Source: Streptomyces griseoviridis
GTDB lineage: Bacteria; Actinomycetota; Actinomycetes; Streptomycetales; Streptomycetaceae
NCBI RefSeq assembly: GCF_005222485.1
Contig: NZ_CP029078.1
Location: 7,813,501-7,877,500 of the forward strand
Length of the DNA: 64,000 bases
Direction of reading: 5' to 3'
Made by a program: the position numbers and the translations under genes. Of the stretch, positions 35,822-58,133 are shown piece after piece (within the stretch, counting starts at the first letter, position 1; each line of letters begins with the position of its first letter). Below the pieces are notes generated by a model that made no database searches, was not told the origin of the DNA, and saw only the letters and a list, made by a program, of their open reading frames with translations.

Positions 35822-36317
35822 CCCGCCGCCCCGACGGCTACCGCGCCCCCGTCGCTCCTCGACCTGGAGCGGCAGCGTGCGGGGGCCGACGAGCCGGCCG
35901 ACGCCGAACACTCCGACCCCGACCCCGAGGCCCGGCCCGAGGTGTTGGATGCCGCCCGGTTCACCGGTGACGCGGCAGGAGAAGCGGGAGAAGGCGACGG
36001 CCGAGTTCCCGTGGCCGGCCCCTTGCTCCGAGCGGTTCGGTCGATATTCGGACACGGCGCGAAATGTATTTCCGGCAATGGGAGACGGGTCTTTTCGGAC
36101 GTGCCGGACGCGTTGTCTCTGTTGCGTCTGAGCAGTGCGGCAACGGCAGTTGGATCAGAGTCCGAAAGGTATTCCAGGGGTAATGTGATCGCCGATGTTG
36201 ACGCTGATGAAAGGAATTCCTCGCTCCGTTCATCGATTTCCCCCGATGCCTGTACCGGGCAGCGGAGAGGCGGTTAGGCTCGCCCCCGGTCGCCACTGCT
36301 ACCGGAGGGGTCCCTGC
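35822..36317. other. 496-bp intergenic region ahead of RHS gene
   Basis: No convincing gene. The first part is GC-rich with an open Asp/Glu-rich frame without a start signal. The part after about 36040 is less GC-rich than the surroundings and probably contains the RHS promoter. Confidence 0.5.
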
Positions 36318-41159: not shown

Positions 41160-41234
41160 GAATCCGCGGGCGCCGCCCGACCGCACCGCCACCCGCCCTC
41201 GCGTACCCCGTCGCAGCAGTGGAGGAGAGAACCC

Positions 41235-42332
41235 ATGTGGACGTCCGTGTCGAAGCTCTCGGTGACGATCGAGACCGGTGAGCAGAAGTGCACCATCTAC
41301 GGAAACTCCCTGAACATGATCGGCGTCGTGGTCAGCGTCCAGCCGACCGACGACAACGGAGATCCGGTCCAGGTCGACAGCTCCACCCTGCTGGACAACA
41401 CCTGGCTCATCGACTACGTCGACGGCTCGACCCTCAACTGGTACGGCTCCTCCGAGTGGAGCTACACGGACAGCCCGAACGAGTTCCACACCATCCCCGG
41501 CGGCAGCCGGGCCGCCGAGGTGGTGGCCGCCGACGACGGCACCCCGCAGGTCAAGTTCTACGTGTACTGCTCCGCCGCCGCGCGGCTGCGCACCAAGTCG
41601 ATCGGCGTCCGGGTCCGCACCGCCTCGGGCGAGAGGATCTCCAGCTCGCAGAACGGCGACTTCCACAGCTCGGTGGTGCTGTCGGCTCTGGAGTCGTTCT
41701 TCTACGGACGCGGTGACATCAACTGGGAGTACGAGCGCGCCGAGACGTACTCCGGTGACGCGTCCGACGTCTACAACTTCTCCCTCACCTGCGCCAAGAA
41801 CGGCTTCTACTTCAAGACGTTCTCGGTGCGGGGCTGCTGCACGGACTACGGCTACGACGGGCTGGCCGGCTGGATCCTCGCGAACTCCTGGAAGGACTTC
41901 TACGGCGCCTACGTCTGGTACCGGGAACCGCACCGGCGCACCCGCGAGACCATCATCAACTTCCCCGGCGACTGGTCCGACGACGTGACCGTCTACGACG
42001 ACGACGCAGAGAAGAACAGCCGCGGTCTCGGATTCACCTGGGCCCACAACCACCATGGCGGCGGCGGGACGTGGGACATCCCGAACGGGCCGATGACGTA
42101 CTGGTGGCAGTACTACGAGACCACCGTCGTCGCCTACGACCAGTACGGGAACTCGGGGAAGTTCTGGGTGGACACCCGCAACATCAACCCCGACTACTCG
42201 ATCAGCGCCACCGACACGGTCACCGAGAACGCCCACGGCCGGTTCGACGTCCACACCGAGCCCGGCGGCACCGACGTGAACGCGTCGTGGTCGGGCCCGA
42301 GGCTGGACATCTACGACTACAACCCGAACTGA
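41235..42332 (+). CDS. unknown protein downstream of RHS gene
   Basis: 365-aa protein I do not recognise. It has no signal peptide or membrane segment and is rich in Trp, Tyr, Asn and Asp (TWLIDYVDGSTLNWYG, WAHNHHGGGGTWDIPNGP), suggesting an all-beta binding or carbohydrate-active fold. A CCTDYGYDG segment near residue 200 has adjacent cysteines. GGAGGAG precedes the ATG. It lies 75 bp after the RHS gene on the same strand, so co-expression is likely. It could be a partner, an immunity-like factor or an independent secreted or cargo protein. Confidence 0.7.
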   Translation: MWTSVSKLSVTIETGEQKCTIYGNSLNMIGVVVSVQPTDDNGDPVQVDSSTLLDNTWLIDYVDGSTLNWYGSSEWSYTDSPNEFHTIPGGSRAAEVVAADDGTPQVKFYVYCSAAARLRTKSIGVRVRTASGERISSSQNGDFHSSVVLSALESFFYGRGDINWEYERAETYSGDASDVYNFSLTCAKNGFYFKTFSVRGCCTDYGYDGLAGWILANSWKDFYGAYVWYREPHRRTRETIINFPGDWSDDVTVYDDDAEKNSRGLGFTWAHNHHGGGGTWDIPNGPMTYWWQYYETTVVAYDQYGNSGKFWVDTRNINPDYSISATDTVTENAHGRFDVHTEPGGTDVNASWSGPRLDIYDYNPN

Positions 42333-42396
42333 GCCACCAAGAGGCCCGGCAGCGCCCGGTGCCCCGCCGTGTCGCTGATGCGGTGGCCGGCGCCGG

Positions 42397-43935
42397 TCAC
42401 CGGGTGAACTGGTCGCGCAGGTCGTCCGCGACCAGGTCGAGGCCGTCCTCCCGGGCCGCCACGGGCGGGATCGTGCGGTAGCGGTCGGGCAGCCCGCAGC
42501 GGGCCAAGTAGGCGGGCACGGAGGTGTGCCGCTCGACCCAGGCGGCCATCTCCGCCTCCGTGTCCGGGAGTTCGTCGAGAAGGCGGGTGAAGACGTCGCG
42601 GTGGTAGGCGACGGCCCGGCCGTCGGCGGCGTCGGTGACGGTCTCCAGGTGATGGCAGCCGTCCACCCGCGAGGCGGTCTCGGCGGCGCCGTCGAGATGG
42701 AGCACCGACCAGGGCCGCGCGCCGAGTTCGGCCAGCGCGCGCCGCAGCACCCAGAGCGCGCCGTCGAGGAGGACCGTGTCGTCCTCCAGGACCAGGACCG
42801 AGGTGAGGCCGTCGATCCTGGCCTCCCGGATCGCGGTCCGGTGGGCGAGGGCTCGGGCCGTGAGGGGGCCGGCGGACACCGTGACGGCGGGCTGGTGGTG
42901 CACACGGTCGGGGCGGACGCCCCACGCGTCGAGCCGGGCCCTGAGGCGGTCACGGCGTTCGGGCCGGTCCTCGACACAGACGCAGGTGACGGCGTCGAAC
43001 GCGGAGAACGGATGCGCCCGTTCGGCCCGGTAGCGGGCGACGCCCTCGCGTACCGCGTCCTCCCCGAGGAACTCCGCGAAGTGGGCGAGCGCCTCGTCGG
43101 CGGGCAGGCCGAGTTCGTCATGGGCGATCAGGTAGTTGCGCAGCCGCTGGTACCAGGTCCGGGTGGCGGGGGCTGGGCGCGGGCCGTCGAAGCGATGGGT
43201 CCAGCGCAGCGCGGGCAGACAGCGGACGGAGTGGCCCGCGCGCCTGAACTTCTCGTGCAGGTAGCCCTCTTCGCCCCCGTGGCCGGTGAACGCCGGGTTC
43301 AGGCCCGGCCACGCCTTGGTCCGGCAGGCGAAGACACCGAGCCCCTGCATACCGATCTCGAACGCCGGGGCGCCGGGGTCGGCGCCGCGCGGGTCGGAGC
43401 CCCACTGCCCGTACATGCCCTGCCCCCACCGGGGTTCCCAGTGCGTCGACACGGTGTCCGCGTCCTCCGACACCAGCGGCCCCTGGACCAGGTCGCCGCT
43501 GTCGGGGTCTTCGTCGATATGGGCCAACAGGGCGTCCAGCGCCCCCGGATGGAGCTGCACGTGCGAGTCGACGCAGAGCGCCCACTCGGTGTCCGCCTCG
43601 CGGAAGACCCGGTCGCGCGCCGCGGTGCCCACCCGCCGGTCGTAGGGGACGTACCGCAGCCCCGGCACCGCCCGCGCCAGCCGTGCGAAGGCCGCCGCGT
43701 GCGGTCCCGACGGATGGTTGTCGACGAGCAGCAGACGGCAGCGCTGCATCGCCTCGGGGTGGTAGAGCAGCAGGCTCATCACCGTGAAGTACACGCCGTC
43801 GTAGTCGTCGTAGGTCGCCATCCCCACCGTGAGGGTGCCGTCCCGCCCGCTCTGCCCGTTCTCGGTGAGGACCTCCACCACCGGCTCCGCGCCGGTCACT
43901 TCGCCCCGTGCCCTGCCGGGCCGTTCCTTCGCCAT
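42397..43935 (-). CDS. two-domain glycosyltransferase (GT2-like plus GT25-like)
   Basis: 512-aa cytoplasmic protein with two transferase-like halves. The first (about residues 30-300) is GT-A-like: VGMATYDDYDGVYFTVMSLL, the metal-binding CVDSHVQLH (DxH), and GHGGEEGYLHEKFRRAGH, as in polypeptide GalNAc-transferase-like GT2 proteins. The second (about 330-500) resembles GT25/LPS transferases: CVEDRPERRDRLRARL, and SVLVLEDDTVLLDGAL with the acidic EDD motif. AGGGAG precedes MAKERPGR, so this start is preferred to the upstream ATG. Convergent to the unknown 365-aa gene. Acceptor unknown. Confidence 0.8.
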   Translation of the reverse strand: MAKERPGRARGEVTGAEPVVEVLTENGQSGRDGTLTVGMATYDDYDGVYFTVMSLLLYHPEAMQRCRLLLVDNHPSGPHAAAFARLARAVPGLRYVPYDRRVGTAARDRVFREADTEWALCVDSHVQLHPGALDALLAHIDEDPDSGDLVQGPLVSEDADTVSTHWEPRWGQGMYGQWGSDPRGADPGAPAFEIGMQGLGVFACRTKAWPGLNPAFTGHGGEEGYLHEKFRRAGHSVRCLPALRWTHRFDGPRPAPATRTWYQRLRNYLIAHDELGLPADEALAHFAEFLGEDAVREGVARYRAERAHPFSAFDAVTCVCVEDRPERRDRLRARLDAWGVRPDRVHHQPAVTVSAGPLTARALAHRTAIREARIDGLTSVLVLEDDTVLLDGALWVLRRALAELGARPWSVLHLDGAAETASRVDGCHHLETVTDAADGRAVAYHRDVFTRLLDELPDTEAEMAAWVERHTSVPAYLARCGLPDRYRTIPPVAAREDGLDLVADDLRDQFTR

Positions 43936-44250
43936 GCGCGCTCCCTGAGCCACCCCACTGTGTGTAGTCGGGGACTCTCGCACAGTCGCCGACCGGCGGG
44001 GCGCGAACCGGGTCGCCTCCCTCTCTCCGGTCGATTCCTTCGTCCCCCTGTCCGAACCCGCCCGGCCGCTCGCGCCGGTGTACGGAGTCCGCGGCCCCCG
44101 ATGGTCAACTCGGCTGCTGGGTAAGCCCCGTACGCGTGAAGGCGCCCCAACGTCCGGGCTCCGCGATCCCCGGCAGCGGTATCACTGAGGCACCCGGCGC
44201 GCGGACGTCCGCTCCGCGACGCACCCCCCGCTCCCGTCCTGGAGTCGATC
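43936..44250. other. divergent intergenic region
   Basis: 315 bp between the glycosyltransferase and the secreted-protein gene. No gene or clear repeat seen; it must hold promoters for both. Confidence 0.4.
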
Positions 44251-44751
44251 GTGCTCTCACGCAAGCTGCTCACCTTCGCGGCGACCTTCGTCACCTCCCT
44301 CGGCGTGGGAGGCACCCAGACCGCGTCCGCGCTCGACCACGCCGAGGCGCCCACCGGCCCCAGCCACGCGACCCGGCTGACGGCGACCGAGGCCGCCGCG
44401 AACGTGCTGCCGCCCTCGATCCAGGGCCTGCACGCGGTGCTGTGGGACGCCGAGACCAACGAGCCGCTGCGGGGCAGGCAGATCGTCTTCACCAACACGG
44501 GAGGCAGGGAGCTGTGCCGCGCGGTCACCGACCCCCTCGGGGAGGCCGCCTGCAGCGCCCCGCTCGCCCTGAGCCTCAGCACACCCGACACCCTCATCAA
44601 CGGCTACACGGCCTCCTACAGCGGCGACCGCGACCACCTGCCCGCCACCGCGCACGGCACGATCAACATCGACGTCGACTGCATGTCCACCCCGCCGCCC
44701 TCGGACCGCGCCCTGAAGGACGACGTCGTCATGGTGGTGTGGACCAGGTGA
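44251..44751 (+). CDS. secreted Ig-like protein ending in the start of an S74 chaperone domain
   Basis: 166-aa protein with a signal peptide (RKLLTFAATFVTSLGVGG, then a TASALD cleavage region) and one Ig-like module (LHAVLWDAETNEPLRGRQIVFTN). It ends in SDRALKDDVV, which resembles the opening SDRRLK motif of the S74 intramolecular chaperone domain of phage tail spikes. The rest of such a domain appears in the next gene, in another frame, starting at an overlapping GTGA. So this may be one gene split in two. GTG start with GGAG upstream. Confidence 0.68.
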   Translation: MLSRKLLTFAATFVTSLGVGGTQTASALDHAEAPTGPSHATRLTATEAAANVLPPSIQGLHAVLWDAETNEPLRGRQIVFTNTGGRELCRAVTDPLGEAACSAPLALSLSTPDTLINGYTASYSGDRDHLPATAHGTINIDVDCMSTPPPSDRALKDDVVMVVWTR

Positions 44752-45209
44752 GCGGCCGACTGCGGGCCCTGACGGCCGTGTTCCGCCGCCCGGCACCGCG
44801 CGGGGCGCCCTCGGGCCGCCATCTGGCGTCCGCCGCCGCCGGGGGAGACGTCACCGGCGGGGAACCGGTCAACGGCTACCAACTCCTGGAGAAGGTCGCG
44901 GAGTTGCCGGTCAGCACCTGGCGCTACACCTGGGACCCGCCGGAGATCAGGCACTTGGGCCCGATGGCACAGGACTGGTGGGCGGCCTTCGGCGTCGGCA
45001 TCGACGACAGGACGATCTGCTGCACCGACGCCAACGGCGTGGCCGTGGTCGCGATCCAGGCGCTGCACCGGCTGCTGGCCGAGACCCGGCGGGAGGTCGC
45101 GGAGCTGCGGGAGGCCCTCGACGGCCTGACGGCGCCGGCCGCGCCCGCCGCCGAACCCGCCCCGCCCGCCAGTCCCCTCGACGCGGCGGTCGACACCCTC
45201 GCCCCCTGA
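44748..45209 (+). CDS. S74-type (endosialidase) chaperone-like protein
   Basis: 153-aa protein. After about 40 variable residues, YQLLEKVAELPVSTWRYTWD and RHLGPMAQDWWAAFGVGIDD match the core of the peptidase S74/endosialidase chaperone domain, followed by a coiled-coil-like LLAETRREVAELREAL and a Pro/Ala-rich tail. In phage tail spikes the domain trimerises the fold and then cleaves itself off. The first part of the domain, including the Ser of SDRALK, is in the preceding gene. The 4-bp overlap suggests translational coupling. No phage genes are nearby. Confidence 0.75.
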   Translation: MSGRLRALTAVFRRPAPRGAPSGRHLASAAAGGDVTGGEPVNGYQLLEKVAELPVSTWRYTWDPPEIRHLGPMAQDWWAAFGVGIDDRTICCTDANGVAVVAIQALHRLLAETRREVAELREALDGLTAPAAPAAEPAPPASPLDAAVDTLAP

Positions 45210-45222
45210 CCGGGACCGCTCC

Positions 45223-45255
45223 GGCCCCGCACCCGCCGAACGGCGACGCGGGGCC
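45223..45255 (+). terminator. hairpin terminator after S74-like gene
   Basis: Arms GGCCCCGC and GCGGGGCC with an inner GCCG/CGGC stem, 14 bp after the stop codon. Confidence 0.6.
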
Positions 45256-45346
45256 CGAGCGAGCACCTGGCCCAGGGCGGGTTCCCTGCAACGATCCGCC
45301 TACAGCCAGTCGCCTGCGGTGACCTGCCTACAGCGAACCGCTGCTC

Positions 45347-46428: not shown

Positions 46429-46463
46429 TTGACGTCCGATTGTTCGAACGAATAGGTTCGAAC
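46429..46463 (+). promoter_or_regulatory. promoter with paired GTTCGAAC palindromes
   Basis: TTGACG (46429), an 18-bp spacer and TAGGTT (46453) match the Streptomyces vegetative promoter pattern. Two identical palindromes GTTCGAAC, at 46442-46449 and 46456-46463, overlap the spacer and -10 with 14 bp between centres. A repressor bound there would block the whole downstream operon. Leader of about 75 nt to the first ATG. Confidence 0.6.
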
Positions 46464-46540
46464 GGGTGGAAATGAGGGGCGACGGTGCCGCACCGCGTTG
46501 TCACAGTCGGATTTCACCGATCACTCGCGAAAGGCGAAGT

Positions 46541-46939
46541 ATGGCCGACGAAGCCGAAAAGCCCGCTGAGAACCCCACCGACTACGAGACATTCATGGCC
46601 TCCGTGATCTCCCTCGACGGAAAGTCGCTGATCGCGGATCTCCGCAAGGCCGAGACCGAGTTCCCCGAGCTGATCACCGCCTTCACCTATCTGAGCATCC
46701 ACGCGGCGGCCTCCGTCATCGCCGGCAACACCTTCCGCCGCGGCAACCTCCTCGCCGACTGCGGCCCCGCCGTCGCCGAACTGGCGATCACCGCGGCGAA
46801 CTCCGTGGTCAAGAGCCCCGACCTGGCCAAGAGCGCGATCTCCAGGATCAACGCGCACTACATCCAGGCGGCCATGGAGAAGTCCATGGAAGAGGGGCAC
46901 GTCGTCACGCCCACGGTGGTCAAGGTCTCCGAGTTCTGA
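46541..46939 (+). CDS. unknown small protein, first gene of cluster
   Basis: 132-aa soluble, mostly helical protein without recognised family. It has an acidic Lys/Glu-rich N-terminus, then LIADLRKAETEFPELITAFTYL, the small-residue-rich segment LSIHAAASVIAGNTFRRGN and ISRINAHYIQAAMEKSMEEGH. AAAGG precedes the chosen ATG. It opens the apparent operon with prenyl and phosphonate genes, so a structural, regulatory or accessory role in that pathway is possible. No catalytic motif is seen. Confidence 0.65.
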   Translation: MADEAEKPAENPTDYETFMASVISLDGKSLIADLRKAETEFPELITAFTYLSIHAAASVIAGNTFRRGNLLADCGPAVAELAITAANSVVKSPDLAKSAISRINAHYIQAAMEKSMEEGHVVTPTVVKVSEF

Positions 46940-46971
46940 GCCGCCGACGGGACCGCAACGGAAACAGTGGG

Positions 46972-47217
46972 GTGACTGCTGTCATGAACCCGATCAACCT
47001 GGTCGACCTGTCCAGACTGTTCCAGGCGGGCGTCCTGGCCGAGCCCGCGAGATGGGCGGACATCCTCGACGGCGCGCCGCCGGCCGACCGCGCCCGCGTC
47101 GAGCACGTCCTCGCCGCGCTGCTCGCCGAACCCGAGGACGAACGCATGCTGCGGCTGCCGATGGCCGACACCGACATGGTCGACTTCGAGATCCCGGAAG
47201 AGGCCGATCACCGATGA
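46972..47217 (+). CDS. unknown small protein overlapping isoprenyl-synthase-like gene
   Basis: 81-aa protein (or 77 aa if the in-frame ATG at 46984 is used). LVDLSRLFQAGVLAEPARWADIL and RARVEHVLAALLAEP suggest two or three helices; the C-terminus is acidic (DTDMVDFEIPEE). Its stop overlaps the next start (ATGA), showing translational coupling to the isoprenyl-synthase-like gene. No family recognised. It might be a small subunit or partner of that enzyme; this is inference from coupling alone. Confidence 0.6.
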   Translation: MTAVMNPINLVDLSRLFQAGVLAEPARWADILDGAPPADRARVEHVLAALLAEPEDERMLRLPMADTDMVDFEIPEEADHR

Positions 47218-48248
47218 ACCCCTCGCCGAGCACCCGGTCGACGACCGGCGCCGCCACCCGCGACGACATCGTCTGGAACCTCGCCGAACACGCCGTGTCC
47301 TACCCGGCCTTCACCGAACACCCCGGCATCAGAGCCGAGTTCGTCCGCTCGCTGCACAAACGCACCCGGCTGTGGGAGCCGTTGCTCAGCCTGCTGGCCG
47401 CGGAGTTCGACCACCGCCCCTCCGAAGCCTCCGCCCGGGTCCTCAGCGGCTGGTTCACCATGGTCCACCTCTCCGCGCCGATCGACCAACTGGTCGACCG
47501 CGACCCGATGTCCGACCACTGGCGGCGGCTCGGCGGCGCCGGCGCCATCGAACTCGTCCTCGCCCTGAAGGACCAGGTCTTCCGCGCCCCGCTGCTGGCG
47601 CTCGACCCGGGGACCGACCCCGGCACCGCCCACGCCGTCACCCGGGCCACCGTCGAACTGGGCTCCGCCTGCCTCACCGCGTCCATCGGCGAGTACCTCG
47701 ACGTCGTCGGCTACTCCGAACTCCGCTCCGAGCCACCGTTCCCGGCCCAGGCGGCCGCCCGAGTCGCCCTGTTCTACGAGCAGTTGGTCGGCTGGAAGTC
47801 GTCCGTCATCTACGAGTGCCTGCTGCGCTGCGCCGCCCTGACGATGGAGGCACCGGCCCCCGCGGTCGACGCGCTCGCCGCCTTCGGCCACCACATCGGG
47901 TTCGCGGTCCAGGTCCTCGACGACGCGGGAGGCGTCTGGGGCGGCGGCGACGACCTGGAGAAGGAACCCGTCAAAGTGACCTCCCCGCTCGCCTACGCCC
48001 TCACCGTCGACCACCCCCAGCGCGACGAACTGGTCGACCTGCTGCACACCCCGGCCGCCCGCCGCGACGTCAAGCGGACCCGCGAGATCCTCGACGACAT
48101 CCAGGCCAGGGCGTTCCTCGAATTCCTCATCCGGGATCGGATCTCGCTGGCCGTCGGCGCCCTCACCGACGTCCTCCCCGGGCTCGTCGCGCCCCTGGAA
48201 CGCTGGGCGGACGCCTACTTCCGGCGCACCTCGCAGGCCCCGCGGTGA
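47214..48248 (+). CDS. isoprenyl-diphosphate-synthase-like protein with degenerate first Asp motif
   Basis: 344-aa all-helical protein of the trans-isoprenyl diphosphate synthase fold. Where the first Asp-rich motif (DDxxD) is expected it has IDQLVDRD (Asp91, Gln92, Asp95, Asp97). The second motif region reads VLDDAGGVWGGGDDLEKEP (Asp236, Asp237) and is followed by VKVTSPLAYAL, which resembles the KxTLP stretch of prenyl synthases. Loss of one Asp suggests altered chemistry: a prenyltransferase to another acceptor, a cyclase, or a regulatory subunit. A canonical synthase is encoded 2.6 kb downstream. It couples to the P450 gene by a GTGA overlap. Confidence 0.72.
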   Translation: MNPSPSTRSTTGAATRDDIVWNLAEHAVSYPAFTEHPGIRAEFVRSLHKRTRLWEPLLSLLAAEFDHRPSEASARVLSGWFTMVHLSAPIDQLVDRDPMSDHWRRLGGAGAIELVLALKDQVFRAPLLALDPGTDPGTAHAVTRATVELGSACLTASIGEYLDVVGYSELRSEPPFPAQAAARVALFYEQLVGWKSSVIYECLLRCAALTMEAPAPAVDALAAFGHHIGFAVQVLDDAGGVWGGGDDLEKEPVKVTSPLAYALTVDHPQRDELVDLLHTPAARRDVKRTREILDDIQARAFLEFLIRDRISLAVGALTDVLPGLVAPLERWADAYFRRTSQAPR

Positions 48249-49621
48249 CCGAGGCCGCCGCACCGTCGGCGCCCGCCGCCCCGGGGCGGCCGGCGGCGAT
48301 GCCGGGACTGCCGTACTTCGGCGGCATCGTCAGGATGAAGAAGGACCCCATCGCCTACCTGGGCGAAGCGAGCCGCAAGGGCCCGGTGGTGCTCCTCGGA
48401 CGGCTCGGCAGGCGGGCCTTCTACCAGGTCAACGACCCCGACCTGGTGCGGTCGGTGATGACGGCGCCCCGCGCGGACGTCGGCATGACCCGCACGAGCG
48501 ATGTCCTCGGCATCCTGTTCGGCGAGTCCGTCTTCACGATGCAGGACGAACCCTGGCGCAAGCGGCGCGACGAACTCCAGCCGGCGTTCAGGACCTCGAA
48601 CCTGCCGGAGCTGTTCGGGTCGGCGGCGGGCGAGATCGAGCGGACCGTCGACCGGTTCCAGGCCGTCGCCGACGCCCGCGGCTCCGTCGACTGCAGCGCC
48701 GCGCTCCTCGACCTCCTCCAGCGCATGATCGTCCGGATGATGTTCGGGGTGGCCGTCCCGGAGACCGCCGAACACCTGACCCGCGCCTTCGACTACGGCC
48801 TGGAGTACCGGCAGCGGCGCCGGTGGTCCCTTGCGGGGCTGCCGCTGTGGTTCCCGACCCCGGCGAACCGCAGGTTCAACGACGGGGTCGCCCGGCTCAA
48901 CGCGAGCATCGTCGAGATCATCGAGGACCACCGCGCCCACCCCCCGGAGCGGGCCGGCCTGCTCACGATGCTGATGGAGTGCCGGGACGAGAAGACGGGC
49001 GCCGGCTGGAGCGACGACGAACTGCTGGCCGAGGTGAAGACCACCTTCGTCGCCGGCTGGCTCACCACCACGACCGCCGCGACCTGGCTCTTCGACCTCC
49101 TCGGCCGCCACCCCGGGATCACCGACCGGGTGGTCGCCGAACTCGACGCGCTGCCCGCCGACCGCCCCCTCGGCTACGACGACCTGCACCGACTGGAGTA
49201 CACGGAGGACACGATCCTGGAGGCGATGCGCCTCTTCCCGCCCGGCTGGCTGCTCAGCAGACGGGTGCGGCGCCCCTACACCCTGGGCGGTCTGCGACTC
49301 GACGACAACGCTGTCCTCCTGGTGTCGCCGTACGCGCTGCACCGGGACCCGGCGCACTGGAGGGAGCCGCAGCGCTTCGACCCCGACCGCTTCCGCGACA
49401 GCACCCACGGCGAGGCGCACAAGGCCGCGTTCCTGCCGTTCGGATACGGGCCACGGGTCTGTATCGGCCGGGGCGTGGCGATGATGGAGCTGAAGATGAT
49501 CGTCGCGACCCTGCTGCGGCGCTTCCGCTTCACCCTCGCCGACCCCGCGCCCGCCACCCTCCAGCCCGTCTCCTTCCTGCGCCGCGCCGAACCGCTCGTC
49601 CTCGACATCGCCCCGCGCTGA
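48245..49621 (+). CDS. cytochrome P450 with atypical I-helix
   Basis: 458-aa P450. The haem loop FGYGPRVCIG (Cys406) and the ExxR motif EAMR (residues 326-329) are intact, and it is longer than typical 400-aa bacterial P450s, closer to CYP102-haem-domain or plant-like lengths. The I-helix reads VAGWLTTTTAATW (269-281). The usual acid of the A-G-x-D/E-T motif is Leu273, which affects proton delivery and is known in a few P450s with unusual reactions. GTG start overlapping the upstream stop. Likely oxidises the prenyl or terpenoid product of the cluster. Confidence 0.88.
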   Translation: MTEAAAPSAPAAPGRPAAMPGLPYFGGIVRMKKDPIAYLGEASRKGPVVLLGRLGRRAFYQVNDPDLVRSVMTAPRADVGMTRTSDVLGILFGESVFTMQDEPWRKRRDELQPAFRTSNLPELFGSAAGEIERTVDRFQAVADARGSVDCSAALLDLLQRMIVRMMFGVAVPETAEHLTRAFDYGLEYRQRRRWSLAGLPLWFPTPANRRFNDGVARLNASIVEIIEDHRAHPPERAGLLTMLMECRDEKTGAGWSDDELLAEVKTTFVAGWLTTTTAATWLFDLLGRHPGITDRVVAELDALPADRPLGYDDLHRLEYTEDTILEAMRLFPPGWLLSRRVRRPYTLGGLRLDDNAVLLVSPYALHRDPAHWREPQRFDPDRFRDSTHGEAHKAAFLPFGYGPRVCIGRGVAMMELKMIVATLLRRFRFTLADPAPATLQPVSFLRRAEPLVLDIAPR

Positions 49622-49942
49622 AGCACCCGGGAGAACGGGGCGATCCCGAAGAAACCCGGGCGATCCCGGGAAACACCGGAAAACATCGGGGAACACTGGG
49701 AAACACCCGGCAATACGTAGAACACCGGGAAACACCCGGCAGCACCCGACAACACGGAGAACACCGGGAACACCGTGCACGCGGAAGGAACCGGAGTGAG
49801 CCCCGGCGATCCCGAGCGAGCCCTTTTCGGCCGGGTCCCGCCCGGCGCCCGCCCGAAAAGCCCACCGACATCGATTTCCGGCCCGGCCGACACCCGTCGG
49901 ACACGGAGATCCGGGCCGCCCCTCACCGTGACGAGGTACGCA
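49622..49942. repeat. intergenic region with GGGAAACACC-type degenerate repeats
   Basis: About 49635-49777 consists of 10-12-bp imperfect repeats built on GGGAAACACC or GGAGAACACC, repeated roughly ten times, unlike the surrounding composition. No gene or hairpin stands out. It separates the first four genes of the cluster from the methyltransferase gene and may hold an internal promoter. Confidence 0.7.
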
Positions 49943-50854
49943 ATGAGAAAAGTCTCGCTGAACTCACCCGCATCCGAACTGAACCCGCCCGAGCCGGAAG
50001 GAAACGCACCTGACGGCCGTCGAGCCGTCATCGACACCGAATACGAGCGCGAAGTCGCCCGGATGTACGACGAGAAACAGAACGATTTCAACCTGCTGCT
50101 CGGCAAAGAGACCAACCTCGTCCACCACCATTTCGGGATCGGCGACTTCGACCGGTCACCCGGCGCCCTCCAGGACGAATCCGCGATCCAGCGGCGGCTG
50201 CACGAACTGGAGAACGCCCAGACCGAGCGGCTGCTCGACCTGCTCGACGGACTCGGCCCCGAACACCGGATCTTCGACGGCGGCTCCGGACGCGGCGGAA
50301 CGGCGTTCATGGCCCACGAACGCCTCGGCTGCTCCGTCGACGGCGCCACCATCTCCCAGTACCAGCGCGGGTTCGCCGAACGCAGCGCCCACGAGCGCGG
50401 CTGCGCCGACAAGGTGCGGTTCCACTTCATGAACATGCTGCGCACCGGACTGCCCACCGCGACCGTCGACGCCGCCCTCACCAACGAGGTCACCATGTAC
50501 GTCAGTGACCTCACCGCGCTGTTCCGGGAGTTCGCCCGGATCGTCAAACCCGGCGGCCGCTACGTCTTCGCGACCTGGGCCGTCGACGAGAGCGGCTCGG
50601 GCGACGAGATCATCTCCGCGATCGACCGGCACTACGCCTGCACCATGCACACCCGGGGCGCCTATCTGCGGGCCCTGCTGGAGTCCGGGTTCGTGCCCTA
50701 CCACGTCGCCCAGATGGACGAAGACGCGCTGCCCTACTGGGAGTTGCGCGGGCGCAGCGAACACAGCGACACCATCGAGAAGCTGTTCATCGACGGGTAC
50801 GACACCTCGACGATCGCCTACCTCATGGTCGCCGCCGAACGGATCGGGCCATGA
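49943..50854 (+). CDS. SAM-dependent C-methyltransferase, geranyl-diphosphate-2-C-methyltransferase-like
   Basis: 303-aa class I methyltransferase. FDGGSGRGGTAFMAHERLGC (motif I, residues 111-130) and LVHHHFGIGDFDR near residue 55 match the prenyl diphosphate C-methyltransferase family that makes 2-methyl-GPP. KPGGRYVFATWAVDES follows as motif III. Expected to add a methyl group to a prenyl diphosphate double bond. In 2-methylisoborneol clusters it sits beside a terpene cyclase; here the neighbours are a prenyl synthase, P450 and phosphonate genes. GAGG precedes the ATG; its stop overlaps the next start (ATGA). Confidence 0.8.
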   Translation: MRKVSLNSPASELNPPEPEGNAPDGRRAVIDTEYEREVARMYDEKQNDFNLLLGKETNLVHHHFGIGDFDRSPGALQDESAIQRRLHELENAQTERLLDLLDGLGPEHRIFDGGSGRGGTAFMAHERLGCSVDGATISQYQRGFAERSAHERGCADKVRFHFMNMLRTGLPTATVDAALTNEVTMYVSDLTALFREFARIVKPGGRYVFATWAVDESGSGDEIISAIDRHYACTMHTRGAYLRALLESGFVPYHVAQMDEDALPYWELRGRSEHSDTIEKLFIDGYDTSTIAYLMVAAERIGP

Positions 50855-51981
50855 ACCCCGACGCCTTACTCGACGAGTTCGACGACGAACTCTTCGCGTT
50901 CCTGCACCGCGAGCGGCCCCGCTCCGACACGTTCCGCCGGATGGTCAGCGACCACATGGACTGGCGCTCCTGGGACGACGGCACCCCGACCGCGCCGAAC
51001 GCGCGGGGCAAACGGGTCAGGCCGCTGCTGTCGCTGCTGACCGCGCGGGCCATCGCGGGGGACCACCGCGGAGCGATACCGGCGGGCATCGCCGTACAGC
51101 TCGTCCACGACTTCAGCATCATCCTCGACGACATCATGGACCGCGACCGGACGCGCAGGAACCGCCCGGCGCTCTGGGTCAGTTACGGCACGGGCCACGC
51201 GATGACGGCCGCCGCCGGGATCTACGTCGTCGGACTCGACGCCCTCCAGGACTACCCCGCACAGGGCGGCTCCCACGCCGACACCCGCGACCTCACCAGA
51301 ACGCTCCTCGAATCCTGCCTGGAGATGGCCGACGCCCAACACCTCGACCTGGACTGGGAACGACGGTTCGACCTCACGCTCGACGAGGTCAGAACCGTGG
51401 CCCTCGGCCGCTCCTGCCTGATCAGATGCGGGATCGAACTCGCTGCGGCGGTCAGCACCCCCGACCCCGCGATCCGCGCCGCCTTCCGCGAGTTCGGCGC
51501 GCTGGTCGCCACCGCCTTCTCGATCGTCGACGACCACCGCGGCCTGTGGGGCAGCGCGGAACGCAACGGCAAACCCCTGCTCAGCGACATCCGCGGGCAC
51601 AAGAAGACCTACCCGATCGTCGTCGGACAGCTGCGCTGCGCCCCCGCGGACCGCCCCCGGCTGCGCGAGCTGCTCGCCCACCCGGAACCGGGCGACCCCG
51701 AGATCGCCGCGATCATGGAACTGCTCGACGGTGCCGACGCCGCGGGCGCCACCCTGCGGGAAGTGCGACGGCTCGCCACGCTCGCCGTGGAACGGCTGAC
51801 CACACCGCCGCTGGCACGCTGCGCGGTCTCCGACCTCGTCGAGCTGACCCGGAACCTGTTCGCCGGTGCCCCCGCGTCCGCTCCCGGCACCGCACCCGCC
51901 CCCTCCTCGTCCCCCTCACTCGCTCCCGCTCCCGCCGAAAGGAGGACCCATGGCAACTCACCCTCAGCTGGGCGACGTTGA
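50851..51981 (+). CDS. trans-isoprenyl diphosphate synthase (GPP/FPP/GGPP synthase type)
   Basis: 376-aa prenyl chain-elongating enzyme. First Asp motif LDDIMDRD (Asp93, Asp94, Asp97), preceded by the LVHDFSII segment; GKRVRPLLSLL as the substrate-binding region; second motif VDDHRGLWG (Asp227, Asp228). The second motif lacks its last Asp but keeps the DD pair. The C-terminal 40 residues are Ala/Pro/Ser-rich and overlap the next gene by 32 bp. Product length cannot be judged from residues alone. It supplies substrate for the coupled methyltransferase gene upstream. Confidence 0.88.
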   Translation: MNPDALLDEFDDELFAFLHRERPRSDTFRRMVSDHMDWRSWDDGTPTAPNARGKRVRPLLSLLTARAIAGDHRGAIPAGIAVQLVHDFSIILDDIMDRDRTRRNRPALWVSYGTGHAMTAAAGIYVVGLDALQDYPAQGGSHADTRDLTRTLLESCLEMADAQHLDLDWERRFDLTLDEVRTVALGRSCLIRCGIELAAAVSTPDPAIRAAFREFGALVATAFSIVDDHRGLWGSAERNGKPLLSDIRGHKKTYPIVVGQLRCAPADRPRLRELLAHPEPGDPEIAAIMELLDGADAAGATLREVRRLATLAVERLTTPPLARCAVSDLVELTRNLFAGAPASAPGTAPAPSSSPSLAPAPAERRTHGNSPSAGRR

Positions 51982-52792
51982 GCCGGCCGCGCCGCCGTTC
52001 GTCACGCTCCCCGCGCTCACCACGGCCCGGCTGCCCGAAGCCGCCCCCCGGATCAAGGAGGCCTGGCTGCGCCATCCGGTCCTGGTGTTCCACCAGTGCG
52101 ATCTGACCCCCGAGGACCTCGTGCGGTTCGGCGCGATCTTCGGCACCCCGGTACCGGTGCCGGTCCAGGAGGACATCGTCGACACCACCGGGCTGCCGCC
52201 CGAGATCATGATCATCTCGAACATCGTGGAGAACGGCCGACGCGTCGGCCACCTCGGCGGCGGCGACCTGAGCTGGCACACCGACATGTGCTACGTGCCC
52301 GAACCCGCCCTCGCCAGCGCCCTCTACGCCGTCGAGACCCCCGAAGCGGCCGGCGACACCTGGTTCCTCGACATGACGGCCGTCCACGACAGCCTGCCCG
52401 CCGCCCTGCGCGCCCGGATCGCGACCCTGTCCTGCAAACACGACGACAGCCGCACCGCGGCGGGCGACCTGCGGCACGGCCGCGTCCCCGTCCTTGACGT
52501 CACCACCTCGTCGGGCGCCGTCCACCCCCTGGTCAGGGTCCGGCCCGAGACCGGGCGCAAGGCCCTCTACCTGGGGCGCCGCCTGAACGCCTACATCCCG
52601 GGGCTGCCGCTCGCCGAGTCCGACGCGCTCCTCGACGAACTCTGGGGGTACTGCGACGACCCCGCCCTGTCCTGGCCGCACCGCTGGCGGCCGGGCGACC
52701 TCGTGGTCTGGGACAACCGCGTCATGATGCACCGCCGCGACGCGATCCCGGACGGCTCCCGCCGGCTGATGCGCCGGATCCAGGCGAGGTGA
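51950..52792 (+). CDS. TauD/TfdA-family Fe(II)/2-oxoglutarate dioxygenase
   Basis: 280-aa oxygenase. Iron ligands: LSWHTDMCY (His110, Asp112) and the distal His261 in VMMHRRDA; the [10 protein letters not shown] tail offers the 2-oxoglutarate Arg. A very strong AAAGGAGGA decides the start MATHPQLG. TauD-like enzymes hydroxylate or desaturate small acids, including phosphonates in several C-P pathways. It lies directly before phosphonopyruvate decarboxylase, so a phosphonate intermediate is a likely substrate; the terpenoid part is the alternative. Confidence 0.85.
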
Positions 52793-52794
52793 CC

Positions 52795-53970
52795 ATGGAC
52801 GCGCCCGCCCTCCCGGAGGGCACCCCCGCCCTCGACCCCGACGCGGTCCTCGACACGCTGCTCGCCCACGGCTACCGCGAACTCGCCGTCGTCCCGTGCA
52901 GCTACCTCAAACCCCTGCTGGAGCGCGCCGCCCAGCGGCCCGACATCGTCTACTTCCCCGCGACCTGCGAGGGCGAGGCGGTGTCGGTCGCCGCCGGCGC
53001 CTGGCTGGCCGGCCGGCGCGTCGTCGTCGCCCTGCAGAACTCCGGGCTCGGCGACGCCCTCAACCCGCTCGCCTCCCTCTGCCTGCCCTACGGCATCCCG
53101 GTGCTGCTGCTGGTGTCGGTCCGCGGCGAACCCGGCACCCGCGACGAACCCCACCACGACGTGATGGGACGCACCACGGCCAGGATCCTCGACGACGTCG
53201 GGATCCGCCACGCCTGGCTGCCCAGCGACCCCGACGGATTCGTCCGGGCGATCGAGGAGGCCGAGTGCGTCATGGAGACCACCCGCAGGCCCTACTGCCT
53301 GCTCACCCGCAAGGGCTCCTTCCGCGACGTCCCGGTACCCGTGCCGCTCGCCCGCACCGCACCGGACCGACTCCCGTCCACCGCACCGACGTTGAGCCGC
53401 GCCGACGCCATCAGATGGCTGCGCGCCCGGCTGCCCGAGGAACAGGTGGTCATCACGACGACCGGGCTGACCAGCCGCGAACTGTACGCGGCGGGCGACC
53501 GCCCGACCCACCTCTACCTCAGCGGCTCCATGGGCTGCGCCGGAGCCGTCGGCCTCGGCATGGCCCGCTCGGGACGGCGTCCCGTCGCGGTCTTCGACGG
53601 CGACGGAGCCGTCCTGATGCGGTTCGGCACCCTCGTCAGCGCGGCGGCCTCCGCGGGACCCGACTTCCTCCACGTCGTCTTCAACAACGGCTGCTACGAC
53701 TCCACCGGAGGACAGCCGATCCAGGGCTCCGTACCGTTCGCCGCGACCGCCGAACTCCTCGGCTACGCCGCCACCGCGTGCTGCGACTCGCTCGCCGAAC
53801 TCCCGCCCGCCTACGACAAGGTGACGGCCCAGCCGGGCCCCCGGCTGCTGGAGATCAAGGTGACGACCGACCCGGTGCCCGCACCCCGGGTCCCGCTCGC
53901 CCTCCCGGAGATCGCGACCCGGCTGCGCGCCCTGCTCGACCCGCCCGCCATCACCGCCCCGGCCTCATGA
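52795..53970 (+). CDS. ppd: phosphonopyruvate decarboxylase
   Basis: 391-aa thiamine-diphosphate enzyme that decarboxylates phosphonopyruvate to phosphonoacetaldehyde, the step that makes C-P synthesis irreversible. Signature segments are [16 protein letters not shown] (TPP Glu), [30 protein letters not shown] and the TPP-binding [15 protein letters not shown] with [12 protein letters not shown]. This is the single-chain form with both halves fused. The ATG is preferred over the GTG two codons before it. It is immediately followed, with an ATGA overlap, by phosphoenolpyruvate mutase, the classic pairing. Confidence 0.93.
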
Positions 53971-54878
53971 CCGCCCCGGGACGGACCACGAGCAGGGCGG
54001 CGGCGCTCCGGCACCTCCTCGACCGCCCGGAGCTGAGCTTCCTGATGGAGGCGCACAACGGCCTGTCGGCGAAACTCGTCGAGCGGGCGGGGTTCGAGGG
54101 CATCTGGGCCAGCGGCCTGTCGATCGCGGCGGCCCTCGGGGTCCGCGACAGCAACGAGGCGAGCTGGACCCAGGTCCTTGAGGTCGCCGAGTTCATGAGC
54201 GACGCCACCAGGATCCCGATCCTGCTCGACGGCGACACCGGCTACGGCAACTTCAACTCGGTGCGGCGCCTGGTCCGCAAACTCGAACAACGCGGCGTCG
54301 CCGGCGTGTGCGTCGAGGACAAGCTGTTCCCGAAGATGAACAGCTTCGTCCGCGGCGGCGCCCAACCGCTCGCCGATGCCGAGGAGTTCGCCGGGAAGAT
54401 CGGCGCCGCGAAGTCCGCCCAGCACGATCCCGACTTCGTCGTCGTGGCCAGGACCGAGGCGCTGATCGCCGGCCAGGGCCTCGCCGAGGCGCTGCGCAGG
54501 GCCGAGTTGTACCGGTGCGCGGGCGCCGACGCCATCCTCGTCCACTCGGCGCGCTCCGACGCGGACGAGGTCCGGGCGTTCAAGGCGGAGTGGGGGGACC
54601 GGCTGCCGGTCGTCATCGTGCCGACGAAGTACTACCGCACCCCCACCGAGGTCTTCGCCGAGGACGGCTTCTCCACCGTCGTCTGGGCCAACCACCTCAT
54701 GCGCTCCGCGCTGCGCGCCATGCAGATCACCGCGTCGACGATCTTCGCCGAACAGCATCTGCGGAACGTGGAGGACGCCGTCGCGCCCCTGGCCGAGGTC
54801 TTCGAGATCCAGGGGGAGGACGAACTCGCCGAGGCGGAGCAGCGCTGGCTGCCGCAGCGGAACACACCGAGGCGCTGA
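53967..54878 (+). CDS. pepM: phosphoenolpyruvate phosphomutase
   Basis: 303-aa isocitrate-lyase-superfamily enzyme that converts phosphoenolpyruvate to phosphonopyruvate and so forms the C-P bond. The diagnostic signature is [11 protein letters not shown] (Glu117-Asp118-Lys119, Asn125-Ser126), which separates true mutases from carboxyphosphonoenolpyruvate- and methylisocitrate-lyase relatives. Also present are [23 protein letters not shown] and [12 protein letters not shown]. It overlaps the decarboxylase gene, so both are made together. No phosphonoacetaldehyde reductase or aminotransferase follows, so the next step is unclear. Confidence 0.95.
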
Positions 54879-55017
54879 CGGGCGTGGTCGCGGTTGCCGC
54901 ACACGGCCGCGATTCGGTACATAAGGACGCACGGGCGGCCCGACCCCCGGCCGCGCCGCGGTGAGGCCGCCGTGTCCCCCCGTCGCCCGCCACCCGTCCC
55001 CGAGAGGACCAAGGACC

Positions 55018-56607
55018 GTGAGCGCATCCGTCCCCGCCGCGTCCGACCTGCCGCTCCGGGCCCCCGAAGGACCCGGCCGCGAGCCACGCCACACCCTGGT
55101 GCTCGTCGTCGTCCTGGCCGCCGTCCTGATGGTGTCGATGGACAACTCCATCCTCAACGTGGCCCTGAAGACCCTCGCCGAGCCCGCGCCCGTCGGCCTG
55201 GGCGCCGACCACGGCCGGCTCCAGTGGGCCGTCGACTCCTACACCCTCGCCTACGCGGGCCTCCTGCTGGGCTCGGGGCTGCTGGGCGACCGGGTCGGCC
55301 ACAAGAAGCTGCTCATCGCGGGCATCGCCCTCTTCGGCGTCGCCTCCGCCCTGTCGGCGAACGCGCGGACCCCGGACCAACTGATCGGCCTGCGCGCCCT
55401 CATGGGGGTCGCCGGGTCCCTCATCATGCCCGCGACCCTGGCCATCATCTCCGCGGTCTTCCCCGGCGAGCGGCGCACCAGGGCGCTGGGCATCTGGACC
55501 GCCGTGGTCGGCGTGGCCGTCGCCCTCGGACCGATCATCGGCGGCGCGCTGCTCGAACGGTTCTGGTGGGGCGCGGTGTTCCTGGTCAACGTTCCTGTCG
55601 TGCTCGTCACCCTCGTCGCGATGTTCTTCGTCCTGCCGGACACCCGGCGCTCCGGCACCGCCCCCGCCCGCCGGATGGACCTCCCGGGCATCGCGCTGTC
55701 GGGACTCGGCCTGCTCGGCGTGGTCTACGGGGTGATCAAGGCCGGTGAACTGAACGACTGGACGGGCCGGGACGCGGGAGTGCCGCTCGCCGCGGGCCTC
55801 GCGCTGCTCGTCACGTTCGTCCTGTGGGAGCGGCACGTGAGCCAACCGGCCCTGGACATGCGGTACTTCAGGGAGCGCGGCTTCGCGGCGGCGGCGACCT
55901 CGCTGGGCGTGCTCTACTTCACGCTGGTCGGCGGCACCTTCGTGATCACCTTCTATCTGCAGAGCGTGCGCGGCTACGGCCCGCTGGTCACCGGCGTCTG
56001 CGTGCTGCCGCTGGCGGCCTCGTTGATCATCTTCGCGCCGCGGGTGCCGAAGCTCGTCACCCGGTTCGGGGTGCGCGCCGTCTGCACCTCGGGGCTGGCG
56101 GTCATGGCGGCCGGTCTGATCGGACTGGCCACGGTCGACCGGGCCACCTCGATCTGGGTCTTCGAGGCGTATCTGTTCGTCTTCGGCGCCGGCACCGCGC
56201 ATGTGCACCCGCCGTCGACCGGGACGATCGTGTCCGCGATGCCGGCCGAGGAGTCGGGCGCGGCCTCCGCGGTGAACAACACCTTCCGGCAGGTCGGGGC
56301 CTCGCTCGGGGCCGCCGTCCTCGGCTCCGTGCTCAACGCCGCCTACCACACCAGGATCGGCCCGGCGGTCGACGGCCTGGGGGAGGGCCGGGAGGGGCAG
56401 GCGAGCGGATCGGTCGCGGGCACCCTCCAGGTCGCCGACGACCTCGCGGCCCACGGCCGGGACCTCCAGGCGCACACGGTCGCGCAGGCCGCGTACGGCG
56501 GGTTCGTGCAGGCCATGCGGATCACCTGGGTGACGGCGGCCGTGGTGGTGCTGGTCACGACGGTGATCGTGTACCTGGTGATGCCGGGGCGGACGGCGGA
56601 CGCCTGA
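55018..56607 (+). CDS. MFS exporter, DHA2 (14-segment) type
   Basis: 529-aa exporter. VVLAAVLMVSMDNSILNVAL, LQWAVDSYTLAYAGLLLGSG and LGDRVGHKKL are DHA2 landmarks; the LRALMGVAGSLIMPATLAII segment is motif C-like. GTG start with GAGAGGA upstream. It lies 139 bp after the mutase gene on the same strand and is the likely export and self-protection pump for the cluster product. A general drug exporter unrelated to the cluster is the alternative. Confidence 0.85.
   Translation: MSASVPAASDLPLRAPEGPGREPRHTLVLVVVLAAVLMVSMDNSILNVALKTLAEPAPVGLGADHGRLQWAVDSYTLAYAGLLLGSGLLGDRVGHKKLLIAGIALFGVASALSANARTPDQLIGLRALMGVAGSLIMPATLAIISAVFPGERRTRALGIWTAVVGVAVALGPIIGGALLERFWWGAVFLVNVPVVLVTLVAMFFVLPDTRRSGTAPARRMDLPGIALSGLGLLGVVYGVIKAGELNDWTGRDAGVPLAAGLALLVTFVLWERHVSQPALDMRYFRERGFAAAATSLGVLYFTLVGGTFVITFYLQSVRGYGPLVTGVCVLPLAASLIIFAPRVPKLVTRFGVRAVCTSGLAVMAAGLIGLATVDRATSIWVFEAYLFVFGAGTAHVHPPSTGTIVSAMPAEESGAASAVNNTFRQVGASLGAAVLGSVLNAAYHTRIGPAVDGLGEGREGQASGSVAGTLQVADDLAAHGRDLQAHTVAQAAYGGFVQAMRITWVTAAVVVLVTTVIVYLVMPGRTADA

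Positions 56608-56648: not shown

Positions 56649-58133
<1,485 letters not shown>

Follow-up and report, generated by a model that had tools for sequence, protein, structure and literature searches.

Ten plus-strand genes at positions 46541–56607 of the window, the 64,000-nucleotide stretch of the Streptomyces griseoviridis genome analyzed here, place prenyl and C–P genes together within ∼10 kb, and together they probably constitute one biosynthetic cluster whose product is a methylated terpenoid phosphonate. Judged from its sequence, the locus appears to be a rare, conserved gene set that builds a methylated terpene and a C–P unit in one pathway. The joint terpenoid–phosphonate pathway proposed in the initial annotation gains support from tight gene coupling, preserved gene order, and specificity among same-genus pepM loci, but one of its two prenyl-synthase-fold proteins, IDS1, is no normal prenyl synthase.

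All genes named in that annotation were found on the plus strand, and most of them do overlap. The first gene, smallA, most likely starts at 46541 and not at 46429. It is separated from smallB by 44 bp; smallB overlaps IDS1 and IDS1 overlaps the P450 gene by 4 bp each, the methyltransferase gene (MT) overlaps IDS2 by 4 bp, IDS2 overlaps TauD by 32 bp, TauD and Ppd lie 2 bp apart, and Ppd overlaps PepM by 4 bp. The run from MT through IDS2, TauD, and Ppd to PepM is thus nowhere interrupted by more than 2 bp and packs prenyl genes tightly together with C–P genes. Two sizeable gaps interrupt the run, one of 321 bp between P450 and MT and one of 139 bp between PepM and the exporter gene; both could accommodate separate promoters, and a scan limited to sigma-70-type sites detected none in either. 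All ten genes recur in the same order in locus L037, which we assign to a different Streptomyces because protein identities range from 74 to 92%. All ten frames are open there, and in nine of the ten genes differences at third codon positions are clearly more numerous than those at first or second positions. Since L037 also has the same flanks, the two loci reflect one inheritance and no independent assembly.

PepM, the phosphoenolpyruvate mutase (53967–54878), passes the NCBIfam PEP-mutase cut-off (TIGR02320, 363.4 vs 319.55 bits), matches 1m1b at E 2.7e-117, and carries the intact EDK-x5-NS signature (10 residues) that had been read from the sequence; among the six PEP_mutase-family places in the genome, only this one has the signature. 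The phosphonopyruvate decarboxylase Ppd (52795–53970) scores 304.9 bits against TIGR03297, by far its best family, just under the cut-off of 312.5. For the cytochrome P450 (48245–49621), the best named families are albaflavenone monooxygenase and pentalenene oxygenase, and for the TauD-family Fe/2-oxoglutarate oxygenase (51950–52792), PtlD (neopentalenolactone synthase), all below cut-off. The last gene encodes a DHA2-type MFS exporter (55018–56607), assigned by family match and kept in L037.

These assignments bear on the possibility that the locus instead encodes two distinct, co-regulated products side by side, a terpenoid and a phosphonate, for example acting together. The 321- and 139-bp gaps would fit such an arrangement, as would the lack of an obvious coupling enzyme and the fact that TauD and P450 score best against terpene-tailoring families, with nothing phosphonate-dedicated after Ppd. 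However, MT and IDS2 belong to one overlapping block with Ppd and PepM, the locus has a single exporter, and the C–P branch would stop at phosphonoacetaldehyde, a reactive compound, because none of the ten proteins matches a transaminase or reductase family; we therefore regard two products as rather unlikely.

MT (49943–50854; 303 residues) is a SAM methyltransferase of the GPP/IPP C-methyltransferase family. Its earlier description as a prenyl-diphosphate C-methyltransferase-like enzyme stands at the superfamily level, with near full-length homology to characterized members (PDB 4f84, 204 bits, residues 16–301; 3vc1, 201 bits, residues 31–301), but the protein falls below the cut-off for GPP 2-C-methyltransferases of the 2-MIB type (NF041943, 283.9 vs 400 bits). 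Two methyltransferases encoded at plasmid locus L069 of R. fascians share 42% identity with MT. Six plasmid records contain MT relatives, and two of them (the unannotated H26, and H27) gave no tblastn match to PepM. As in the noncanonical terpenoid clusters that carry prenyl-diphosphate methyltransferases (GPPMT, IPPMT, and FPPMT), an MT of this family is accompanied by a P450 and a prenyl synthase; in contrast to those clusters, MT is under the GPPMT cut-off, C–P genes are added, and the class I terpene cyclase family has no match among the ten frames scanned.

The prenyl-synthase fold claimed for two proteins is present in both, with intact motifs only in IDS2. IDS2 (50851–51981), of the trans-prenyl diphosphate synthase family (PF00348, 138 bits), has the hallmarks of chain-elongating enzymes (GKxxRP, FARM DDxxD, and post-FARM Arg pair) in 2 of 2 sequences; its FARM reads DDIMD and its IPP site is intact. 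Its allylic site is substituted in both sequences, the K of KT to R and the Q of FQ to S. Five further places in the genome match PF00348. Neither IDS2 (193.6) nor IDS1 (52.4) reaches the cut-off of 450 for family 2 encapsulin prenyl-transferase cargo (NF041169).

IDS1 (47214–48248) is a divergent protein of the same fold with most of the IPP site gone. Structure alignment gives 20% identity to the closest synthase of solved structure. The 50 entries listed by a structural search were all prenyl synthases, a listing that leaves room for other relatives of the fold. Its FARM is altered to DQxxD and its second motif reads DDAGGxWG. Across the IDS1 family (n = 15), two IPP-site features of chain-elongating synthases are missing: the R of GKxxRP and the post-FARM Arg pair occur in 0/15 each, whereas the FARM metal aspartates D1 and D5, the DD of the second motif, the K of KT, and the Q are each present in 15/15. 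Traces of the IPP site persist: the K after the second motif is retained in 14/15 members and Arg replaces the K of GKxxRP in 13/15. With IPP-binding residues mostly lost and metal- and allylic-diphosphate-binding residues invariant, IDS1 is probably a terpene cyclase or a non-IPP prenyl transferase. Insect IDS-derived terpene synthases likewise combine a prenyl-synthase fold with substituted IPP-binding residues, although IDS1 belongs to a bacterial family and has DQxxD in place of DDxxD; in the accessible part of one account, such insect cyclases descended from prenyl synthases are recognized by loss of the IPP site (PMC12376265). The plasmid search gave no match to IDS1.

The prenyl synthases could also be read as self-protection. 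Prenyl synthases and DXR can be inhibited by phosphonates and bisphosphonates, and the phosphonate might be an isoprenoid-pathway inhibitor that MT and the oxygenases modify, with IDS2 and/or IDS1 as target copies. The unusual allylic-site substitutions of IDS2 and the presence of the other PF00348 places would agree with this. However, neither MT, as a member of the prenyl-diphosphate C-methyltransferase family, nor IDS1, which is unlike a functional elongating synthase, fits naturally as a resistance copy, and we consider this reading very unlikely.

Comparison with other pepM loci places the cluster apart from those of its genus. PepM is up to 77% identical to metagenomic, Gram-negative, and other non-genus PepMs and 43–57% identical to 14 same-genus PepMs. 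In the PepM tree, one group (support 0.999) unites the window sequence with that of L037 and the eight closest PepM matches; a split with support 0.965 places this group, along with other non-genus PepMs, apart from the 14 same-genus PepMs. A class-wide search of 393 other genomes gave PepM matches with E ≤ 1e-70 in two, each from the same genus. As controls, we took 19.9 kb around each of the 14 pepM genes, from 13 other same-genus genomes. Like the window, all 14 combine an intact PepM with a Ppd no more than 10 kb away, detected by tblastn in every case; unlike it, they lack tblastn matches to IDS1, IDS2, P450, smallA, and smallB (0/14). Since tblastn with IDS2 alone was too weak, missing the annotated polyprenyl synthetase of locus L071, a profile of canonical prenyl synthases was also used; it found no prenyl synthase in the control loci (0/14 at E ≤ 1) and recovered every positive control, namely the L071 synthase and both IDS1 and IDS2, in L037 as well as the window. 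The terpene family covered by profile was that of the prenyl synthases; MT, P450, and TauD were searched for by tblastn only, with one partial match to MT, in L055 (31% identity across 109 residues), and TauD matches in 2/14 loci, and tblastn likewise gave MFS matches in 4/14. Among the compared same-genus pepM loci, the prenyl–pepM pairing is thus specific to this cluster type.

The non-genus affinity of PepM would suit a captured Gram-negative pathway for aminoethylphosphonate-type cell-surface phosphonolipids, with isoprenoid genes as membrane-lipid neighbors. The Roseomonas marmotae pepM–ppd pair indeed adjoins a polyprenyl synthetase and hopanoid genes, and that of Mycetohabitans rhizoxinica adjoins dxs, a likeness to the window. 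Yet both loci encode an AEP transaminase, a cytidylyltransferase, and a CDP-alcohol phosphatidyltransferase, none of which is matched by the ten window proteins, so the transaminase and nucleotidyltransferase that mark AEP phosphonolipid or phosphonoglycan clusters are missing; the window instead has MT, IDS1, and an exporter, and neither MT nor IDS1 has a tblastn match in the two loci. In two further annotated loci, from Mesorhizobium and Sinorhizobium, neither prenyl synthases nor terpene genes are listed, and we judge such a capture highly improbable.

Co-occurrence beyond L037 speaks in part to whether the terpene half regularly occurs without pepM, a pattern the initial annotation had weighed against a joint pathway. 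Shared contigs were inferred from equally sized longest contigs. IDS1 and PepM share one in four of 14 other IDS1 matches (276028, 676987, 98482, and 30174), three of which also agree with a smallA match; the remaining ten, including Sphingomonas trueperi ABIC65_002556 and Pyrinomonadaceae VJ875_27015, show no contig agreement among the best 120 of 6052 PepM matches. PepM and smallA agree on two more contigs (280205 and Amycolatopsis NBC_00345). Among the matches listed, IDS1 was found neither in Amycolatopsis nor on the contigs of PepM matches P0018 and P0020.

The two small proteins are less readily classified. SmallA (46541–46939; 132 aa) has no NCBIfam match, and its longer frame (46466–46936) matched nothing in Pfam; its AlphaFold model (pLDDT 48) is too poor for use. 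Besides its own entry it has 12 relatives, five of them on longest contigs equal in size to those of PepM matches (among the matches listed), and the relatives so far are either in such clusters only or unplaced. SmallB (46984–47217; 77 aa, ending ..DTDMVDF..) has no NCBIfam match and is 74–76% identical in L037. With its codon-position differences from L037 about equal (11, 14, and 15), it is counted as coding from its overlap with IDS1 and its position, and it is possibly a partner of IDS1. A DxDMVDxD stretch like that of smallB lies near the N terminus of the IDS1 relatives P0014 and P0015; blastp was weak (E 2.7 and 1.5), and a smallB–IDS1 gene fusion was set aside as a lead only. That IDS1 is instead a non-catalytic partner of IDS2, comparable to the small subunits of heterodimeric prenyl synthases, with an acyclic or prenyl-ester phosphonate as product, is barely credible: the degeneracy is complementary (IDS2 keeps IPP and FARM features, IDS1 keeps K(T) and Q), but the metal aspartates, needless in a dead subunit, are invariant in the IDS1 family.

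In the preferred scheme of one methylated terpenoid phosphonate, PepM would form phosphonopyruvate and Ppd would convert it to phosphonoacetaldehyde, while IDS2 would supply a short prenyl diphosphate that MT methylates, unless MT acts on IPP ahead of elongation. IDS1 would ionize the methylated allylic diphosphate, and the cation would be quenched internally, by cyclization, or by the phosphonate unit as nucleophile; the product would be oxidized by P450 and TauD and exported by the MFS protein. It is plausible, as the initial annotation suggested, that phosphonoacetaldehyde would be coupled with a methylated prenyl diphosphate. As ligase, aminotransferase, dehydrogenase, and nucleotidyltransferase families have no match among the ten proteins, IDS1 is our preferred candidate for joining the C–P unit to the terpene, the least certain step. 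More tentatively, the locus may specify a new natural product class, C-methylated terpenoids with a C–P bond, in which IDS1 alkylates phosphonoacetaldehyde or phosphonopyruvate with the methylated prenyl cation.

No description of a terpenoid phosphonate cluster was found in the accessible portions of the open-access literature. If such a cluster was noticed before, this would most likely have been in the 2015 PNAS survey, reportedly of 10,000 actinomycetes. In the available text of a 2025 survey of actinomycete phosphonate clusters, "prenyl" and "hybrid" are absent and "terpen" occurs once, in a reference (PMC12723261); the available sections of reviews on noncanonical methylated-terpenoid pathways make no mention of "phosphon" (PMC10881772, PMC11070974).

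Phosphonates and terpenoids are each a source of antibiotics and herbicides, and the compactness of the cluster (ten genes in about 10 kb) makes heterologous expression practical. A pathway joining both would open a hybrid chemical class, probably with a new enzyme that forms C–C or C–O bonds, and alkylation by IDS1, if true, would be a new route to extension of the phosphonate carbon skeleton.

The cluster's ten genes occupy the + strand (46541 to 56607) of a window that spans 7.81–7.88 Mb in a single-contig genome of 8.96 Mb. Family scans gave the order smallA and smallB (short proteins, the first lacking any family match in these scans and the second any NCBIfam family in the NCBIfam scan), IDS1 (a divergent prenyl-synthase-fold enzyme, weak polyprenyl synthetase match), P450, MT (a methyltransferase of the prenyl-diphosphate type), IDS2 (polyprenyl synthetase), TauD (Fe/2-oxoglutarate oxygenase), Ppd (phosphonopyruvate decarboxylase), PepM (PEP mutase) and an MFS exporter. 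Seven of the nine junctions overlap or are ≤44 bp apart, with larger gaps at P450–MT (321 bp) and PepM–MFS (139 bp); across MT–IDS2–TauD–Ppd–PepM, prenyl and C–P genes are intermixed, every gap being ≤2 bp. The P450–MT gap (49622–49942) contains loose repeats of GGGAAACACCCGG-like units.

A locus of Streptomyces sp. SolWspMP-5a-2 (L037) matches the window in the cluster and both flanks, keeping all ten genes in the same order at 74–92% identity, with six of nine junctions equal in length. A Pro/Ala/Ser-rich tail (51860–51981) closes IDS2 and shares 32 bp with the beginning of the TauD gene, an overlap also present in L037; a convergent FAD-dependent aromatic-hydroxylase gene (56649–58133), syntenic in L037, adjoins the exporter and was left out of the cluster. 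Upstream, 35824–45337 (∼9.5 kb) carries an RHS gene (36195–41159; 1654 aa, C-terminal Tox-HDC domain) and downstream genes. As L037 offers no counterpart to this stretch between the same two flanking matches, it appears to be a polymorphic-toxin island that was inserted here, or else a segment lost from L037.

The prenyl and C–P hybrid cluster proposed in the initial annotation proved real, conserved and, as judged from sequence searches, rare, since neither IDS1 nor smallA had a good match in the genome samples searched: IDS1 had none in 391 other genomes sharing the database genus label (best other E 5.9e-11, residues 188–329), its family alignment none at E 1e-40 in 198 other genomes, and smallA none at E 1e-6 in a class-wide sample of 393 other genomes, the three samples overlapping. 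For four of 14 other IDS1 matches, the longest contig equals in size that of a PepM match (276028, 676987, 98482 and 30174), smallA agreeing in three of these, and PepM and smallA agree in two further cases, including Amycolatopsis NBC_00345; such agreement is indirect, as one record may represent several sequences, and PepM matches were the best 120 of 6052.

PepM scores above its curated cut-off and alone among the genome's six PEP_mutase-family places bears EDK-x5-NS, bearing out the intact signature first read there. The nearest family to Ppd is phosphonopyruvate decarboxylase, 7.6 bits below cut-off. Because family scans of the ten proteins matched no transaminase, dehydrogenase or nucleotidyltransferase family, the C–P building block is likely phosphonoacetaldehyde or phosphonopyruvate itself.

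PepM was found (E ≤ 1e-70) at 14 places in 13 of the 391 other same-genus genomes. In 19.9 kb around each, tblastn detected Ppd in 14/14, MFS in 4, TauD in 2 and a partial MT match (31%) in 1, and IDS1, IDS2, P450, smallA and smallB in none. As tblastn with IDS2 overlooked the known synthase of a Roseomonas marmotae plasmid locus (L071), the prenyl-synthase comparison was redone with a profile of 14 canonical synthases, run on all stop-to-stop frames of ≥90 aa. This profile, covering prenyl synthases among terpene families, matched none of the 14 loci at E ≤ 1; it recovered the L071 gene (4.5e-49), IDS1 (2e-23) and IDS2 (4.3e-54) of the window, and both L037 counterparts. The cluster is best explained as making a joint terpenoid phosphonate, a reading that we judge moderately probable; one rival reading takes terpenoid and phosphonate as separate products.

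IDS2 has the counted IPP-site and FARM residues, with K of KT replaced by R and Q by S in both copies; another rival holds that one or both prenyl-synthase genes are self-resistance copies. MT shows homology to GPP 2-C-methyltransferase along almost its full length (4f84, 204 bits) and scores 283.9, under that family's cut-off of 400; its candidate substrates are IPP, GPP and FPP. Two methyltransferases of a Rhodococcus fascians plasmid locus share 42% identity with MT, and we assume that these are the R. fascians methyltransferases that review PMC10881772 names among enzymes for C6/C7 building blocks. Best scores were albaflavenone monooxygenase and pentalenene oxygenase for P450 and neopentalenolactone synthase PtlD for TauD, all under family cut-offs.

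A captured phosphonolipid pathway is a further rival. Among four annotated pepM loci examined, isoprenoid genes adjoin two and are absent beside pepM in those of Mesorhizobium and Sinorhizobium. On R. marmotae plasmid p1318-3 (L071, 5936–16879), genes for pepM, ppd, AEP transaminase, cytidylyltransferase and CDP-alcohol phosphatidyltransferase adjoin polyprenyl synthetase, ispH, hpnH and squalene-hopene cyclase genes, possibly linking phosphonolipids with hopanoids; on Mycetohabitans rhizoxinica pBRH01 (L072, 5633–14955), an AEP-type pepM locus is followed directly by dxs. The best PepM relatives in plasmid records reach ∼62% identity.

The last rival makes IDS1 non-catalytic. Relatives of IDS1 include Sphingomonas (66%) and Pyrinomonadaceae (46%) proteins. 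In a PepM tree of matches to the window PepM, arbitrarily rooted and with poorly supported inner order, the window sequence groups with that of L037 and with its eight nearest matches (one Amycolatopsis, seven unclassified, Streptomyces included) at support 0.999, and a split (0.965) sets this group with metagenomic and Gram-negative PepMs against the 14 other same-genus PepMs. Transfer into actinomycetes, whether or not as one cluster, is a reasonable inference.
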